NCBI RefSeq assembly: GCF_002964975.1
Contig: NZ_PSZM01000036.1
Span: 1 to 64,000, forward strand
Reading direction: 5' to 3'
Length of the DNA stretch: 64,000 bases
Source: Apibacter adventoris
GTDB lineage: Bacteria; Bacteroidota; Bacteroidia; Flavobacteriales; Weeksellaceae
Of this stretch, positions 36,050-44,206 are shown one piece after another; positions within the stretch are counted from its first letter, which is position 1, and every line of letters starts with the position of its first letter. The position numbers were made by a program, and so were the translations under genes. The notes beneath the pieces were generated by a model that saw only the letters and a list, made by a program, of their open reading frames with translations, was not told the DNA's origin and searched no databases.

Positions 36050-36760
36050 TTAACGCTTTTCCGGAATAATCCTTTGAAAAAATGCTTCCCGATAATTGTT
36101 TCCTATTCCAATTTCGTATGTATTGATGAAAATATCGTTGTTATTAAAAGATTCAATCCGATTCAGATTGACTATATATGATCTATTGATACGAAAAAAG
36201 ATGTTGTGAGGTAGTAATTCTAATATGTTTTTCAAATACATTTTAGTAATAATTCTTTTATTTTCTGTCTGTATGATAACATAATCTTTCAAACCTTCAA
36301 TAAATAGGACATCTCTATAATAAATTTTGAAGAATTTTCTTTCTGATTTTACAAAAATATGGTCAGATTTAATATCTCCCATGTTTCCCTTTTCTTCATT
36401 CATCAATAAGGTATGATAAGCAACGGCTTTTTGCACTGCTTTTGCTAAGCGATCTTCTTCAATAGGTTTTACCAAATAGTCTATGGCATCAACATCGTAA
36501 CTATCAAGTGCATATTCCGAATAAGCAGTAGTGAATATAACAAGAGTGGTTCGAGGTATATTTTTTGCAAAATCGATTCCATTTATTCCCGGCATTTGGA
36601 TATCAAGAAATGCTAAATCAACAGTTTTATCTAACATAAATTCAGATGCAGACTCAGCATCTTCGAAGCTACCGACAAGCTGCAACTGAGAGATTTTGTC
36701 CACTAAGGCTGCAAGTCCCAAGCGAGCAATCGGTTCATCATCAACTATAATACACTTCAT
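36050..36760 (-). CDS. LytTR-family response regulator
   Basis: This 236-residue regulator has a receiver domain (1-~115) with the acidic pair VDDEP and phospho-acceptor Asp53 in FLDIQMPG, plus the conserved DAIDYLVKP lysine segment. The C-terminal LytTR DNA-binding domain (~135-236) includes VKSERKFFKIYYRDVLFIEGLKDYV and FFRINRSYIVNLNRI. Such regulators bind direct-repeat sites. It overlaps its kinase by 4 bp (ATGA) and is last in a four-gene operon behind a TonB-dependent receptor, so the receptor gene is a plausible target. Confidence 0.92.
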   Translation of the reverse strand: MKCIIVDDEPIARLGLAALVDKISQLQLVGSFEDAESASEFMLDKTVDLAFLDIQMPGINGIDFAKNIPRTTLVIFTTAYSEYALDSYDVDAIDYLVKPIEEDRLAKAVQKAVAYHTLLMNEEKGNMGDIKSDHIFVKSERKFFKIYYRDVLFIEGLKDYVIIQTENKRIITKMYLKNILELLPHNIFFRINRSYIVNLNRIESFNNNDIFINTYEIGIGNNYREAFFQRIIPEKR

Positions 36761-37812
36761 ATTTTCAAATTTAATGTAATAGAATATATTGTATTGGTTT
36801 CGTGTATTTTCAAAGCAAAATCATTTTTGTAGAGCAATTCCAGACGACGTCTTATATTTGCCAATCCTAATCCTCCTTCAGTCTTAATAGGCGGGCTTTG
36901 GGGCTTTGAGTTTACACAAAAGAATAATAATTGCGAGTTATTTATTTTGAATGAGATATCAACATAAGACATGTTTTTATTTCCGGAGCTATGTTTTACC
37001 GCATTTTCAATGAAAGGTATAAATAACATAGGAGGTATTTTGATCGTGTGTAATACTCCTTCTTTTAAAATAGCATAATTAAACCTGTTTCTGCGAGATT
37101 TTTCCAGTTCAAGATAATCGGTCAAAAATCTGATTTCATCATCGAGGGAAACAAATTCTTTAGTGCTGCCATCTATTTGGTAAGATAGTAGATCATTAAA
37201 CTTTGTAAGCATTTCTGCAGCCATTATCGGATTGTGTTTTATCATGATGTTCACATTATTAAGAATATTGAAAAGAAAGTGTGGATTGATTTGATTTTTC
37301 AATTGTTGTAATTCAGCATTTACGGTAATTGTTTCCAATTCCCTTATCCGTTTATTATTTATAATCCAGTTTTTTAAAATAATAAATGTTGAGGAACAAA
37401 TAATAATAATACCAAAGGCTATAATTGAGTTTGTCAAACTAAGGAAGAGACTAACGTAGTTTATACCTTTACTCAAATCAACAATATGAAATACAAATTG
37501 TGAAAGTGATATTAGTAGTAACAATATGAGAATAATTAAGAACAAAAGTATAAAATATACCGAACTTCTATTTTTCAATAAGAATGAAGGAACCATAACA
37601 TACATGTTTATATATATAACCCCGGTAAATATTATAAAGAATACCAACCATTCATAATATTGATAAAAGGATGCTTTATATGCACCATTGAGATTCATAC
37701 AAGATGCTACAATACTGATGATAAACAATAGAATAAAATGCCTGAATAATCTGAACTTTGAGCCGGTCAGGATATTGGGGATAAAGGTGTTATTTATACT
37801 GTTTACAAACAT
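36757..37812 (-). CDS. LytS-type sensor histidine kinase
   Basis: This 351-residue membrane kinase has four hydrophobic segments in the first ~150 residues, then a His_kinase domain with QINPHFLFN (His178). The ATPase half follows, with N-box FIPFIENAVKH and G-box GGLGLANIRRRLELLY. All expected catalytic parts are present. The cognate regulator overlaps its 3' end. A second, degenerate copy of the kinase is encoded 2 bp upstream. The ligand is unknown; no periplasmic sensor domain is apparent. Confidence 0.92.
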   Translation of the reverse strand: MFVNSINNTFIPNILTGSKFRLFRHFILLFIISIVASCMNLNGAYKASFYQYYEWLVFFIIFTGVIYINMYVMVPSFLLKNRSSVYFILLFLIILILLLLISLSQFVFHIVDLSKGINYVSLFLSLTNSIIAFGIIIICSSTFIILKNWIINNKRIRELETITVNAELQQLKNQINPHFLFNILNNVNIMIKHNPIMAAEMLTKFNDLLSYQIDGSTKEFVSLDDEIRFLTDYLELEKSRRNRFNYAILKEGVLHTIKIPPMLFIPFIENAVKHSSGNKNMSYVDISFKINNSQLLFFCVNSKPQSPPIKTEGGLGLANIRRRLELLYKNDFALKIHETNTIYSITLNLKI

Positions 37813-37814
37813 AT

Positions 37815-38867
37815 TTATACAGCGATTTGGATAGTCAGTTCTTTTTCATTTTGTATTTTTATCGAATATTTATTATGATACAATAATTCGAGTCTATGGT
37901 TAACCTGCGAATAATTTATATTCTCAACGTTATTGCTTATACAACTGAATTGCAAAAGATTATTTTCTACTAAAAAGCTAAGTTGCAGAATTAATTTATT
38001 GTTAAGCTCATGATTAGATATGATAGATTGCTGAATAAATGGAAGAAACAATAATGGAGGTATAAAAAGATGTGTCATATCCCCATTTTTATTGATAATA
38101 AAATCAAAATTTCCGAGATAGTTTTTTTCAAGACTGAGGTAATTCGTTAAAAAAACGATCTCAGAACTTAACAAAACTTTATCCCTGCCGCAATCATATA
38201 ATTGATATCTAAGTATCTTACTTAAATTCAGAAGCATCGCAGACGATTCTTCCGGCGCTGATATGGCTAGAGAAGCTGATTTCTTTAATATTCGGGATAA
38301 GAAAGATGGGCTTACTTTTTCTTTCATTCTTTCTAATTGAGAGCGTAGATCTTCTGTTTCCAGCTGATTAATACGCTGAATATTCATTAGCCAACTTTTA
38401 AATAGTACACTCATTGAAATACCCACTATATAAATTCCAGATATCAAGAACGAACGAACCAACTCGATAATGAGATTTATCTCCGAATAAAAAGTGAGCG
38501 AGGAATCGAATATAGTATTCTTAGGTTTGAAAATAAAGTATTCAAAACCCAGATTAGTTACAATAGAGAAGGTTATTAATATTAACAATGTGACTGTGTA
38601 TTGCAAATACTTACTCTTTAATAATAATTTCGGAACAATAATATATAAATTGAAATAGATAATTGTCATGTCTAATATTAAAGAAAAAAGAATTATCCAA
38701 TATATCTTATTTTCGAGAATAGAGTAATTTTTACCGTAAGTAATTAAAGTGCTATTCATCTCAATAATCGCAATAGATAAAATGAGAAAAATATGTCTCC
38801 ATATTTCGAACCGTTTTTTTGTCAATAAATCAGGCAGAAAACTATATTTTTCTTTATTTGATTTCAA
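37815..38867 (-). CDS. degenerate LytS-type kinase paralogue (pseudokinase)
   Basis: This 350-residue protein aligns end to end with its downstream neighbour: a similar start (FLPDLLTKKRFEIWRH versus FIPNILTGSKFRLFRH), four membrane spans and the same C-terminal RLELLYHNKYSIKI. The catalytic residues are lost. INPHFLFN has become VSPSFLSR (Ser188 in place of His), the N-box PFIENAVKH has become PFIQQSIIS, and the glycine box is missing. The frame is intact, which suggests a maintained non-catalytic partner, perhaps a heterodimer subunit or decoy. Spacing is 2 bp to the active kinase and 37 bp from the receptor gene. Confidence 0.85.
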   Translation of the reverse strand: MKSNKEKYSFLPDLLTKKRFEIWRHIFLILSIAIIEMNSTLITYGKNYSILENKIYWIILFSLILDMTIIYFNLYIIVPKLLLKSKYLQYTVTLLILITFSIVTNLGFEYFIFKPKNTIFDSSLTFYSEINLIIELVRSFLISGIYIVGISMSVLFKSWLMNIQRINQLETEDLRSQLERMKEKVSPSFLSRILKKSASLAISAPEESSAMLLNLSKILRYQLYDCGRDKVLLSSEIVFLTNYLSLEKNYLGNFDFIINKNGDMTHLFIPPLLFLPFIQQSIISNHELNNKLILQLSFLVENNLLQFSCISNNVENINYSQVNHRLELLYHNKYSIKIQNEKELTIQIAV

Positions 38868-38904: not shown

Positions 38905-41259
38905 TTAAAATTCAAGTTTATAATAGAGATTACCTATCGAAGAAGAATCTCTATATTTCTCTATTGCGCCGGTTTTAAAATTATATCTGTGTCCATAAAA
39001 TTCTTTTGCGCTTGTCGCATTTAAACCTACAATGCCCCATTCATACGATCTTTTTTTATTATTAACGCGATAGCTCAAGGTATAATTTAACAAGAGCATT
39101 GCCCCTAATTGTTTGGAGTAGGCTTTTCGTTCATTATATTGGGCTTCTTTATCAGGATCATTCATTGTTGCTTCAACGTCTAAAGGAGAATAACGGTCAC
39201 CGCCTTGTAACGTTAACCTAAGATTGGCGCTAAGTATTTTATTCTTCCTTTTTCCAAATATCCATTCTTTTCCTCCCGAAGCATTCAATATATAATTCCG
39301 GTTAAATTTTGTATTATGCCAAACCCCATCTCCTCCCTTATATCTTGAATCAAACAATGTAGCAGTTATCAAATAATAATAGCCTTTATTAAGATATCTC
39401 TCCAAAGTAATATCAATACCTAAATTTGTTCCTTTCCCTTTATTGACCAAAGGTTCTTCAACATAAAACTGATCCCTGTTTAATACTGAGTAAGAACTAT
39501 CCGCTATTACCGGCACATCATAAAGATACTGAAAATATGGTTCTATCTTTAAATTAGTATTGTCTGATAATTTATAACTATAAGTAAACATCGCATGATG
39601 AGCTTTTGTGAAATCTAAATCTTTATTCATTGATTTGCTACCTGTGCTTTGAGTCTTTACAAAAAAAACATCTATTTTTTCCATTCTACTATGCATACCA
39701 TATGCAATTGCAAAGTAGGTCCGATCCCCGCTCTTCCACTTCATGGAAATACGAGGTTCAATAGTCCAATGATTATTTAAAGTTAGAATCTGGCTGTATA
39801 TACCCTGATTGAATGTCACTCTATCGCTTAGTCCAAACGATGCGCTTGTATAGCCCGATATTAATTCAGTATTTCCTTTACCTTGTGAAATTGTTTCGAG
39901 TGGATAAGCTTCATGAGGTGCTTTTTGCAAATTCATTCCATAAAACATTTTTGTATAAGTAAATCCTGTTTTATTGGTAAATCTATGACTGAATTTTTTA
40001 TTTAGAGATGCGTTGAAAATTAAATTGGTAGTATGACTATCAAGATATCCATAAGGAGTTGAGTTCATATTGGCGTCAAATACATCCTGTTTCACATTAT
40101 ATTTCGCATATGTACTTGCCAAAGAGCTTTTCAACATCGTATTATCATTGAAGAAATAGCGATGCGTTAATCCACCCGAAAGCATATATTGCTTTGATTG
40201 ACCTTTATTTCTATCTGAAAAATATTCCCATTTTTCCTGATCTTTTTCAAATTTTTGCTTATAGCTATCATATAATGCAGTACCCCAAACGGAAAAAGTG
40301 CCTGTTTTTTTTGTCGGAAAGTTTAGTTTGAAATTCAAGTCCTGATAGTTAAAATGATTTGAGGTTGAATCTTTGTCTATCTTATTCATCAAACCAATAA
40401 GCGAATACCGATAGTTTATAATATAGGAAGAATTTTGTTTCTTATTAATCGCTCCTTCGGATGCTAAATCTATCCCTAAAGTTCCAATTTGTAAAGTATA
40501 TTCTCTATTTTGAGTATTCCCATTTCTCATGCGCATATCAAAAACTCCTGATACTGCATTGCCATATTCAGCGGGAAAAGCGGCGGAGAAAAAATCAGAA
40601 TTACCAAGAACCTTATTGCTCAGTGAAGATAGTATACCCCCGCCAAGGGTTTGTATATCGGCAAAGTGATTGGGATTTGGTATTTCAACATCTTCTAATC
40701 TCCATTGTAGCAGATGTGGCGCGTTACCGTGAACGGATATTCCATTTGAAGATGGTGCAGATGCGATTCCCGCAAATGAAGAAATTAAACGGGCGGGATC
40801 ATCCAATCCTCCTGCAAAGCGGCTAGCTTCTTCCACGCTTAACATACGTGCTCCTGTCAGTGCCATTTTATTTATTGGGGCATCTTTTTCATAAGCGCTT
40901 ATAGTAATTTCACTTAGTTCATGTGAACTTTCCGTCATTGGAATTTCCAAATAGACTTCTTTTGATGTAGTTACTAGGATTTCACGAATAAAAAATGGTT
41001 GGTAACCTATACATGTTGCTTGAATAGTATGTCTTCCTACCGGTACATTTTTCAATATAAAATTTCCTTGCTCATCTGTTGTCGTTCCTATCTCAGGTAT
41101 ATCCGATATTCCAATTGAGATGAAAGATAATGGTTTTCCGGACTGAGAATCAACGGTTATGCCACGTATCGTTTGAGTAAATTGATCGTTTGTTACTTGT
41201 GCTTTTATATGAGCATAACATAAGAATCCTATTAAAAAGCTAATAACAAAATATTTCAT
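38905..41259 (-). CDS. TonB-dependent receptor with carboxypeptidase-like N-terminal domain
   Basis: This outer-membrane active-transport receptor has 784 residues. A signal peptide (HIKAQ, ~residue 21) is followed by a CarboxypepD_reg-like domain (TIRGITVDSQSGKPLSFISIGI...GTTTDEQGNFILKNVPVG). A plug domain (~130-240; ISVHGNAPHLLQWRLEDVEIPNPNHFADIQTLGGG) and a 22-strand-type barrel ending YYKLEF complete it. No SusD partner is adjacent, so polysaccharide uptake is not implied. It heads an operon with the two kinases and the LytTR regulator. Its G+C is visibly higher than its neighbours, which suggests horizontal origin. Confidence 0.88.
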   Translation of the reverse strand: MKYFVISFLIGFLCYAHIKAQVTNDQFTQTIRGITVDSQSGKPLSFISIGISDIPEIGTTTDEQGNFILKNVPVGRHTIQATCIGYQPFFIREILVTTSKEVYLEIPMTESSHELSEITISAYEKDAPINKMALTGARMLSVEEASRFAGGLDDPARLISSFAGIASAPSSNGISVHGNAPHLLQWRLEDVEIPNPNHFADIQTLGGGILSSLSNKVLGNSDFFSAAFPAEYGNAVSGVFDMRMRNGNTQNREYTLQIGTLGIDLASEGAINKKQNSSYIINYRYSLIGLMNKIDKDSTSNHFNYQDLNFKLNFPTKKTGTFSVWGTALYDSYKQKFEKDQEKWEYFSDRNKGQSKQYMLSGGLTHRYFFNDNTMLKSSLASTYAKYNVKQDVFDANMNSTPYGYLDSHTTNLIFNASLNKKFSHRFTNKTGFTYTKMFYGMNLQKAPHEAYPLETISQGKGNTELISGYTSASFGLSDRVTFNQGIYSQILTLNNHWTIEPRISMKWKSGDRTYFAIAYGMHSRMEKIDVFFVKTQSTGSKSMNKDLDFTKAHHAMFTYSYKLSDNTNLKIEPYFQYLYDVPVIADSSYSVLNRDQFYVEEPLVNKGKGTNLGIDITLERYLNKGYYYLITATLFDSRYKGGDGVWHNTKFNRNYILNASGGKEWIFGKRKNKILSANLRLTLQGGDRYSPLDVEATMNDPDKEAQYNERKAYSKQLGAMLLLNYTLSYRVNNKKRSYEWGIVGLNATSAKEFYGHRYNFKTGAIEKYRDSSSIGNLYYKLEF

Positions 41260-41704
41260 ATCTACGACTATTTATAGAATTTGACATTTTGTAAATCTAT
41301 ATTTAGTTTTATTAGCATTCAAAAAAAGTAGACAAAGACAAGTTTTTGATAGACGGATGGCGCTGAAATGATAATAGAATATAAGATGGGCAATGATTTA
41401 TTATAGTATTAAAAGGTAAAAAGCGGTTAATCCAAATAGATTATAATCATTGTCATAGATTTATTTCGTACTATGAAAATGAAATATAGAAGACAATAGT
41501 TTGCTCGTTTTTAAATCATTGTTTATTGTTCATATTTCTATATTTATTACCTATTTTTCAACAGATAAATTATATTTTTTTATTATTATATTTTTTAATA
41601 ATACCTTTAAAATATGTTTATAATTATATATTTATATTAATGGATTCTATTTTTAATTACCTTTGTTTTTTATCTTTTATAAAGTAACTAAAACAAAGAT
41701 TTCC
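41260..41704. other. divergent intergenic region between the two outer-membrane receptors
   Basis: This 445-bp gap contains the second copy of AAAAAGTAGACA (41323-41334) and the -7 box of the downstream gene. No ORF or clear gene remnant is visible. The half next to the receptor has more G/C than the A/T-dominated half next to 41705. Confidence 0.45.
41658..41665 (+). promoter_or_regulatory. candidate -7 box (TACCTTTG)
   Basis: TACCTTTG matches TAnnTTTG and lies about 40 bp upstream of the ATG at 41705. Its position argues against the in-frame TTG at 41663 being the start codon. Confidence 0.5.
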
Positions 41705-44206
41705 ATGAAATTTTTAATTATTGTATTCTTTTCTTTTTTTATTTCTTTGTTTGCTTATACTCAGGATAGTTTAGTTATTATATCTAAAATTATAAATCCT
41801 GATATTCCTTGTAGAAAAGATAGTACAAATAAAAAAATTACCCTACAGTATAAACAAAATAACTCTTATATAGATATTAATACTTTTAAATCTAATAAAT
41901 GTATAAATTATTATATTATTCCTAAAGTTAATGGTGAATATAAATTTATTGTTACAACTAAGAGCTATGAAACCGAATTTTCTACTTTCGAAATAACTGA
42001 AAAAACCTCTGATTCTTTAGAAATCAATGAAATATTTCTTTTTAATAAAGCACCCATATATTATAAAGAAAAGGAAATACATGAAGTTACTATAACAGGA
42101 GAACGCAAAAGTTTAGTGAAATTTGAGGCAAATAAAACCATTTATATGGTAAAAGATAATGATTTATTATCCGGGGGAAGCATAGAAGATGCTGTTAAAA
42201 AACTGCCTGGTGTGATTAAAGGTTTTGGTGGAGAGTTAACTGTCAACGGTAAATCTATGGCTATCTATATTGATAATTCCCCTTCAGGTTTGACAGGTTC
42301 TGACTTGGAAAATCTTTTACAAAGTATCCCAGCAAGTTCTATTGAAAAAATTGAAATTATAAATAATCCCGGAGCTTCTTATGATGCAAATACGGGAGGA
42401 GGAATTATTAATATTATTACCAACGGAAATGCTTTGAGAGGTATTAATGGAGCTGCTACTTTAAATTATCGTTTTAACCGAAATAATAAAATTTCTCCTT
42501 CTATTAATATAAATTCTCGGCTTAATAATATAAGTGTACAATTGAATAGCGGATTTAATTATAGGGAATGGAACAAAACCAATAATTATGAGAGAGAGTT
42601 CATTTATTTTTCTCCGCATATTTTTTTCTATCAAAAAGGAAAAGATGAAGGATATAATCGTTATTATTATTTTCGACCTTCAGCTAATATAAAATTAGGA
42701 AATAAAAGTAATTTACTTATTAATTATAATTATAGTTATACATATAATGATCTTTTTAACACTACTAATTCTGAAAGCCTAAATTCTATTAAATCTATAG
42801 ATTTATCTTCTACTAACAAATCCACAAACAAAAACTCTAATCACGAAATAATAACTCAATATAAAACTCAATTAGACAGTCTAGGAACAAAATTTGATGT
42901 TACAGCCTATTTTTCTCATTATGATAAAATACCTAGTAATAAAAATGCTCAAAATAATTCAGGTATCAATTCTTACTCTATCAATAAAATTGATTTGAAT
43001 TATAATAATTTTTATGCAAAATCCAACTTTGAAATTCCAATAAAAAAAATAGACTTAAGTGTAAATTTAGGGGGAAAATATTCTATCACTCATTCATCAA
43101 GTTCAGGAAAATATAATTTAATGAACAAGTCTTCTTCTATATTTGAATATCCGGAGTATATTTCTAATCTTACTTTTGATTATGATGATTATCAATATGC
43201 TTTTTACACAGAGGTAAATAAAAACTTTAAAAAATTAAATATTACTGCTGGTTTACGTTATGAAAATTTGAAATATAAAAGTCATATAAAGGAATATGTT
43301 CGAGAAATTGATAATCGATTAGACAAAATGTATCCTTCTATAAGCTTTTTATATAAAATAACTCCTATACTAAATTTTACTACATCATATAGAAAAAGTA
43401 TATCACTCCCTCCCTATACTAACTTAGATCCTAATATAAATGGATATTATGATGAATTTAATACAACTACAGGAAACCCTTATTTAAAACCGGATTTTTA
43501 CAATAATTATGAGATAACTTTCAGTGCTTTTAATTATTTACGTTTAGGTTTTCAATACACGTATTCTAATCAGGTAAACCTACTTTCTTTTGAAACTAAA
43601 GATAATTCTCTTAATGTAAACCAAACAACTCAAACATTTAACGGATTAAAAAATTATAACGTTTCTTTAGGAATACCAATTCCTTTTGATCTAATTAGAA
43701 AAGGTAAAAAATTTTTTAAAGAGCCCTTAAATGTTGATAAAATGAGTTTTCTGTATTTTTTTAATATGTATAATTATTTTAAACTTGATGACTATCCTTA
43801 TATAAATAAGGTAAAACCTATATGGATTTTTAGTTTTTATACACAAATCTTTCTTCCTATGGATTTAAAATTCTCTGGATTTTATTTGTTCAGTACTAAT
43901 AAAGGAAATTATAAAATATATACTGCAAATAGACCTTTTAACTATTCAAATTTTGAATTATCAAAATCTTTTTATAACAAAGCTTTTAAAGCATCATTTG
44001 GGGTAGAAAATTTGTTTAATAACAGTAAAATTGCAGCTGGTATTATAAGTCATAACCTAAATACTAATTCTTATCAAAAAGATGATAATCAAATATTTTA
44101 TTTAAAATTATCTTATAACTTCGGAAAGTTAAAAAATCTTAAAAAAGAAAATACAATTATAGATAATGATAAACAAAAAAATAGTTTTAACATACCTTAT
44201 AAATAA
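41705..44206 (+). CDS. outer-membrane beta-barrel receptor of the TonB-dependent receptor superfamily
   Basis: The 833-residue product has a signal peptide (AYTQ, ~residue 20) and a short Ig-like region (~21-115). A plug follows with EVTITGERKSLVKFEANKTIYMVKD, LPGVIKGFGGELTVNGKSMAIYIDN and IEIINNPGASYDANTGGGIINI. The long barrel has FGVENLFNN near its end. This is the 'outer membrane beta-barrel family' (OMP_b-brl_3) pattern. A C-terminal tail of ~25 charged residues extends past the last strand. Ligand unknown. It converges on the GNAT gene with only 6 bp between stops and no visible terminator. Confidence 0.85.
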   Translation: MKFLIIVFFSFFISLFAYTQDSLVIISKIINPDIPCRKDSTNKKITLQYKQNNSYIDINTFKSNKCINYYIIPKVNGEYKFIVTTKSYETEFSTFEITEKTSDSLEINEIFLFNKAPIYYKEKEIHEVTITGERKSLVKFEANKTIYMVKDNDLLSGGSIEDAVKKLPGVIKGFGGELTVNGKSMAIYIDNSPSGLTGSDLENLLQSIPASSIEKIEIINNPGASYDANTGGGIINIITNGNALRGINGAATLNYRFNRNNKISPSININSRLNNISVQLNSGFNYREWNKTNNYEREFIYFSPHIFFYQKGKDEGYNRYYYFRPSANIKLGNKSNLLINYNYSYTYNDLFNTTNSESLNSIKSIDLSSTNKSTNKNSNHEIITQYKTQLDSLGTKFDVTAYFSHYDKIPSNKNAQNNSGINSYSINKIDLNYNNFYAKSNFEIPIKKIDLSVNLGGKYSITHSSSSGKYNLMNKSSSIFEYPEYISNLTFDYDDYQYAFYTEVNKNFKKLNITAGLRYENLKYKSHIKEYVREIDNRLDKMYPSISFLYKITPILNFTTSYRKSISLPPYTNLDPNINGYYDEFNTTTGNPYLKPDFYNNYEITFSAFNYLRLGFQYTYSNQVNLLSFETKDNSLNVNQTTQTFNGLKNYNVSLGIPIPFDLIRKGKKFFKEPLNVDKMSFLYFFNMYNYFKLDDYPYINKVKPIWIFSFYTQIFLPMDLKFSGFYLFSTNKGNYKIYTANRPFNYSNFELSKSFYNKAFKASFGVENLFNNSKIAAGIISHNLNTNSYQKDDNQIFYLKLSYNFGKLKNLKKENTIIDNDKQKNSFNIPYK

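Follow-up and report, generated by a model that had tools for sequence, protein, structure and literature searches.

Histidine kinases are generally regarded as homodimers. Histidine-kinase-like proteins that lack normal kinase function and act in signalling complexes include DivL and the degenerate ethylene receptors of plants. In group A Streptococcus, the FasBCA system consists of two sensor-kinase-like membrane proteins and one regulator encoded in one operon; FasB and FasC formed a heterodimer in bacterial two-hybrid analysis, and one of the partners is proposed to be a pseudokinase (PMC12675982). RocA is a membrane pseudokinase that interacts with the functional sensor kinase CovS (PMC7028121). 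In Corynebacterium glutamicum, the pseudokinase ChrS is without a working ATPase domain and forms heterodimers with its active paralogue HrrS, and the output is changed (PMC9491836).

Here we analysed a locus of Apibacter adventoris with the FasBCA-type layout, in which tandem kinase-like genes are followed by one regulator gene. The comparison with related loci suggests that the upstream protein, HK1, is probably a dedicated and anciently inactivated subunit of a two-protein sensor, working as a heterodimer with the kinase HK2.

Results

The window, i.e. the whole stretch of 64,000 nucleotides that was analysed, carries a four-gene unit on its minus strand, which is transcribed in the order receptor-like gene, HK1, HK2 and LytTR response regulator gene. 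The first gene (38905..41259) encodes an outer-membrane receptor-like protein of 784 aa with a CarbopepD_reg-like domain, and the last one (36050..36760) encodes a response regulator with receiver and LytTR domains and overlaps the end of HK2 by 4 bp; both were assigned by ORF and domain search. On the basis of ORF, alignment and Pfam, HK1 (37815..38867, 350 aa) is a LytS-type pseudokinase with four hydrophobic segments (about residues 25-44, 54-82, 88-113 and 130-158), a degenerate His_kinase region and a degenerate ATPase part, and HK2 (36757..37812, 351 aa) is a LytS-type kinase with intact His, N-box and glycine box. The two genes are separated by 2 bp (37813-37814). The start codon of HK1 is TTG; the first in-frame ATG is that of residue 37, and this codon is ATA in the near relative L004. 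A second outer-membrane receptor-like gene (OMP_b-brl_3, 41663-44206 of the plus strand) is divergent from the four-gene unit.

The original prediction described HK1 as a full-length copy of its active neighbour with a Ser in place of the phospho-acceptor His, without the N-box Asn and the glycine box, with its frame and hydrophobic segments kept and 2 bp away from the kinase, all of which agreed with our alignment and ORF analysis. HK1 and HK2 were aligned over nearly the whole length with 102 identities in 341 positions (30%, E 3e-40). Both matched the Pfam family His_kinase PF06580 (46.9 bits for HK1 and 79.9 bits for HK2, cut-off 25.2), and the NCBIfam search gave no match for HK1 or HK2. 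The phospho-acceptor region reads VSPSFLSRIL in HK1 and INPHFLFNIL in HK2, placing the Ser188 codon of HK1 (38304..38306, minus strand) at the position of the His178 codon of HK2 (37279..37281, minus strand). The N-box reads IQQSIIS in HK1 as against IENAVKH in HK2, with Gln279-Gln280 (38028..38033, minus strand) replacing Glu-Asn, and the glycine box GGLGLAN of HK2 is absent from the corresponding stretch of HK1 (37878..37922, minus strand). The only solved structures matching the window HK1 were 6swj/6swk, which were also the sole convincing structure match of a six-row profile. An AlphaFold2 model of the window HK1 made from a two-row alignment was rejected (mean pLDDT 46.4, pTM 0.23).

A search for the same pair in other Bacteroidota, proposed together with the original prediction, recovered the dead/live pair repeatedly: 36 pairs were opened in 26 genomes of 6 families and 2 orders, with the fused pair of genome G1112 entered as one. 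The opened loci are the best-scoring and tandem matches among all matches, and the match lists vary with profile and threshold. When the window's family was searched with a profile of HK1 and its relative from genome G003 (197 genomes at E up to 1e-20, 320 genomes at E up to 1e-45), side-by-side double matches were obtained only in the window genome (G000) and in G003, and the 31 other opened matches of this family (L048-L078) were all single and all with His. Among 395 genomes sampled from the phylum, pairs were present in G940 (one) and G841 (two); the family of G841 (61 genomes) added one genome, G996, 19 of the 78 genomes in the family of G940 contained pairs, and the order of G940 (247 genomes) added three more families with pairs, in G1148, G1249 and G1343. 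The named genome collection gave one related locus, L004, from a Dysgonomonas MAG. Plasmids yielded 11 records, all below 60% identity (the 10 listed were 22-30% identical and annotated as histidine kinase), and the viral contigs searched yielded no match. The receptor beside one pair in another order (G841:C6, L097:9161-11533, minus strand) scored 1021 bits against the window receptor, more than the 845 bits of the copy from G003, which is of the same genus as the window. The four-gene unit may have been transferred horizontally.

At the phospho-acceptor site, His was found in 0 of 36 HK1s, 36 of 36 HK2s and 24 of 24 single kinases, and in all 36 pairs the upstream member was the one without His and the downstream member the one with it. 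Orthologues of HK1 with His at this site had been named in advance as contrary to the prediction, and none appeared among the 36. That a pseudogene had lost one His by chance was rejected as well, as the loss is shared by 36 of 36 pairs. The His was replaced by Ala (8), Glu (8), Ser (6), Gln (5), Val (3), Gly (3), Asp (2) or Thr (1); with none of these residues preferred, it is unlikely that another chemistry operates at the site. The N-box Asn was present in 3 of the 34 HK1s with a letter there as against 35 of 35 HK2s, and the second glycine of the glycine box (Gly316) in 2 of 27 HK1s as against 32 of 32 HK2s. Over 30 pairs, the mean entropy of the membrane part was 2.34 bits in HK1 versus 2.32 bits in HK2, while HK1 was relaxed in the His helix (1.98 versus 0.60 bits) and in the N-box region (2.02 versus 0.81 bits). 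The dimerisation-helix motif is among the best-kept parts of HK1. As far as the sequence goes, 35 HK1 frames are without interruption, with three rows (G1076a, G1047 and G1106c) reaching or approaching a contig edge; the exception, G1071a, has internal stops.

Several pairs differ in architecture. In the draft genome G1112 (C16; L160:5294-7048, minus strand), an HK1-like membrane and dimerisation part with Glu at the His site and without the ATPase domain is fused to a complete HK2 in a single frame of 585 aa, as judged from the sequence only. In G1115 (C2; L155:5523-6275, plus strand), HK1 is an open frame of 251 aa which ends just after the LRHQLY motif, is without the ATPase domain and overlaps with its end the likely start of HK2. 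In G841:C9 and G996, the C-terminal end of HK1 is shortened or altered, and the frame of G841:C9 stops before the end of the profile. Membrane helices and dimerisation helices are common to these variants.

The residues lost by HK2 were examined at 54 positions with at least 85% conservation in 56 distinct single kinases. Among these positions, 24 were kept in both proteins, 15 were lost only in HK1, 12 were mixed and 3 were lost only in HK2. The HK1-only losses fell in the His helix, the N-box, the glycine-box region and a few other places, and the HK2-only losses, Ser206, Leu213 and Tyr214, were clustered in the second dimerisation helix. Ser206 was found in 56 of 56 singles, 25 of 35 HK1s (Gly in the rest) and 2 of 36 HK2s; Leu213 in 53 of 56, 35 of 35 and 13 of 36, respectively; and Tyr214 in 55 of 56, 35 of 35 and 1 of 36. 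In the window, this segment of HK1 is LSKILRYQLYDCGR (residues 215-228; 38184..38225, minus strand), with Tyr224 as the Tyr present in all 35 HK1s with a letter there, and residues 205-214 of HK2 read FNDLLSYQID (37171..37200, minus strand), with Asn206 and Asp214 where the singles have Ser and nearly always Tyr. Many singles had been obtained with an HK1-based profile, which raised the concern of a fetching artefact, and 18 more singles from the list of the HK2 profile were therefore used as control. These had Ser206 in 18 of 18, Leu213 in 18 of 18 and Tyr214 in 15 of 18 (Ser in the other three), which counters the artefact explanation. Of eight more distant LytS kinases beside related receptors, seven carried Ala and one Ser at position 206, and all eight carried Asp, Glu or Gln at position 214. 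Given these kinases and the Ser214 of three of the 18 nearer singles, the patch characterises this subfamily together with its near kin, and not every LytS kinase requires it. Counted along the hairpin from Pro195, residues 210-214 would lie about level with His178.

The reciprocal loss suggests an obligate heterodimer of HK1 and HK2. A heterodimeric sensor had been put forward in the original prediction, and this interpretation is supported in part. An alternative is that HK1 modulates self-sufficient HK2 homodimers, as inhibitor or activator, by transient contact as in RocA-CovS and RetS-GacS. Known pseudokinases do act as modulators (RocA, PMC7028121; RetS-GacS as mentioned in PMC12675982), but Ser206 and Tyr214 occurred together in 0 of 36 paired HK2s as against 70 of 74 singles, and HK1 and HK2 form one polypeptide in G1112. 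Among the matches of the HK2 profile with at least 320 bits in the family searched, 24 of 25 were in pairs, with the fusion as one of these 24. The one clearly unpaired HK2-like kinase (L162, G1113:C280) has both Ser206 and Tyr214, so that it offers no example of an HK2 acting alone without the patch; two HK2-like kinases cut by a contig end, so that pairing is not visible (L163 and L181), have Asn at both positions. We therefore consider modulation of HK2 homodimers unlikely. The patch loss in HK2 may also be one ancestral change with another meaning.

In a tree of 30 HK1s and 30 HK2s on all columns, the HK1s formed one group (100/99) and the HK2s one group (92/91). When the catalytic columns were removed (the His helix and all residues from 255 onwards), the remaining 228 columns of 36 pairs again placed the HK1s in one group (89/89) and the HK2s in another (99/94). 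The simplest account would be a single duplication and a single inactivation, after which the two genes were inherited jointly. Several independent inactivations of HK1 are less likely because the HK1s remain one group without the catalytic columns, with support (89/89) below the significance star. The distance matrices of HK1 and HK2 were correlated (Mantel r 0.84 for 30 pairs and 0.80 for 36 pairs, 0 of 5000 permutations in each case), and nearest neighbours agreed for 23 of 30 and 23 of 36 pairs. Since linkage of adjacent genes alone would produce matching trees, this agreement speaks for persistence of the pair and not for contact. The median ratio of HK1 to HK2 distances was 1.58 on all columns and 1.14 on the non-catalytic columns.

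Selection was estimated in seven comparisons of related loci, of which three were informative (dS below 1.4 in both genes) and the other four were saturated in at least one gene. In the informative comparisons dN/dS was 0.178, 0.118 and 0.177 for HK1 and 0.138, 0.141 and 0.121 for HK2, the estimate being rough in two of the three, where dS was 0.8 to 1.4. HK1 is under purifying selection in these three comparisons. The 36 pairs, the matching trees and the purifying selection in the three informative comparisons of the seven give good support to the claim that a dead partner is maintained next to a live kinase. For the family, catalytic residues have been lost while the gene was kept by selection; for the window's own lineage this is less well supported.

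In that lineage, HK1 may be relaxed. Comparison of 225 codons between the window HK1 and L004 gave about 8.5 nonsynonymous changes and about 3.5 synonymous ones, with a dN/dS of about 0.65 (0.50 to 0.91 depending on the length taken) as against 0.11 for the adjoining receptor. The probability of at least 8 nonsynonymous changes in 12 (8-9 were counted) is 0.056 at a dN/dS of 0.178 and 0.91 under neutrality. It is conceivable that HK1 is here a decaying duplicate which is becoming a pseudogene while the pair matters elsewhere; this would agree with the high ratio, with the TTG start of HK1 and with three in-frame stops in L004, but no more than about 12 changes underlie the ratio, the reading frame of the window HK1 is uninterrupted, and 13 of the 15 letters by which HK1s differ from HK2s are present in it (on average, 41% of these letters are also present in singles, so some of them are ancestral). 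The stops in L004 are confined to the terminal 72 bases of its contig (L004:4923-4994), which have 6 differences as against 12 in the preceding 675 bases (Fisher p about 0.006, entered as 6/75); five of these six are G-to-T or C-to-A changes, which can occur at contig ends of poor quality. Because stops and excess differences crowd into these last bases, low quality of the contig end would explain them as well as decay does. Decay in close relatives, which had been named as contrary to the original prediction, is only partly excluded: the confinement of the L004 stops to the contig end speaks against it, and the relaxed change and stops of L004 and the stops in G1071a speak for it. Overall, local decay of HK1 appears improbable. 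The most decayed-looking pair was that of G1071:C105 (L146:2114-3169, minus strand), with stops in the HK1 frame and a shortened HK2 frame. HK2 was broken or shortened in five draft loci (G1056a, G1056b, G1071a, G1065 and, at a contig end, G1076b).

In 14 of 36 loci (the window, 9 of 29 and 4 of 6 others), the gene immediately upstream of HK1 is a receptor orthologue, and these 14 receptors clustered together, separately from 30 other receptors (SH-aLRT 98), with distances tracking those of HK1 (r 0.89) and HK2 (r 0.83). A gene of the Pfam family DUF6268 takes the upstream place in 7 of 29 loci and was not seen there in the other 6 loci examined. In 26 of 29 and 4 of 6 loci, the regulator gene is located no more than 400 bases downstream. 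On contig C24 of the window genome (L003:2621-3535, minus strand), a DUF6268-like protein, by a resemblance judged by eye, is encoded beside another LytS-type kinase. The co-inherited receptor and the DUF6268 genes would suit HK1 as a membrane adaptor, not a kinase subunit, that couples one of these proteins to HK2 or binds the regulator, but neither gene was found beside HK1 in 13 of 29 loci (three of them with less than 100 bases of upstream sequence) and the dimerisation-helix motif is well kept in HK1. Such a role appears very improbable.

Discussion

We propose that a LytS-type kinase was duplicated once to give the pseudokinase HK1 and the kinase HK2, which have been inherited together since. 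The natural fusion, the co-inheritance and the reciprocal residue loss suggest that the two proteins form a heterodimer, in which the membrane helices and the dimerisation helices would make the contact. HK2 would provide ATP binding, the only phosphorylatable His and the phosphotransfer to the LytTR regulator, while HK1 would provide its membrane part and the helix-2 surface (Ser-xxx-Arg-Tyr-x-Leu-Tyr) that is gone from HK2, and on its own HK2 would have little or no activity. In many loci, the outer-membrane protein whose gene directly precedes HK1 is the probable input, and HK1 may relay its signal. The sequences show the residue pattern, the co-inheritance, the purifying selection in three HK1 comparisons, one fusion and one HK1 that lacks the ATPase domain; the physical dimer, the dependence of HK2 on HK1, the direction of control and the role of the receptor are what we infer from sequence comparison. 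More tentatively, and with slightly less than even chances, the pair could be a reciprocally degenerated kinase in which HK1 has lost catalysis and HK2 the Ser206/Leu213/Tyr214 surface, so that only the heterodimer would be complete and the surface would be supplied in trans beside the HK2 His.

The heterodimers encountered in the literature are single cases, and here 36 naturally asymmetric dead/live pairs are at hand. The residues lost by the two halves complement each other, one member is fused and another is reduced to membrane and dimerisation helices, and the set is a natural mutant collection for dissecting the halves of a dimer. They are also a warning that a protein annotated as histidine kinase by a PF06580 match can be a pseudokinase.

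Pseudokinase-kinase heteromers are already known (FasBC, RocA-CovS and ChrS-HrrS), and the LytS tandem adds a further variant to them; no LytS-type tandem of this kind was found among the matches listed in the open-licence literature. DivL and the ethylene receptors have other domain types and partners and are not tandem LytS-type genes with a LytTR regulator. Group A Streptococcus belongs to another phylum than the HK1-HK2 host, and rocA is located apart from covRS. FasBCA is the closest system in layout, with two kinase-like genes and a regulator together, but in that system the phosphorylated His (H246) comes from the pseudokinase FasC and the kinase domain from FasB, whereas here HK2 has both and HK1 neither, none of the 36 HK1s carrying that His; in addition, six membrane segments are predicted in FasBCA as against four in HK1 (PMC12675982). 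RocA truncated to lack its catalytic domain still complements, and the HK1 of G1115 is likewise without that domain, but RocA keeps a dispensable His (H246) at the predicted site, unlike HK1, which has none (PMC7028121). The ChrS-HrrS state arose in laboratory evolution (PMC9491836), whereas the HK1-HK2 state is old and common to 36 loci.
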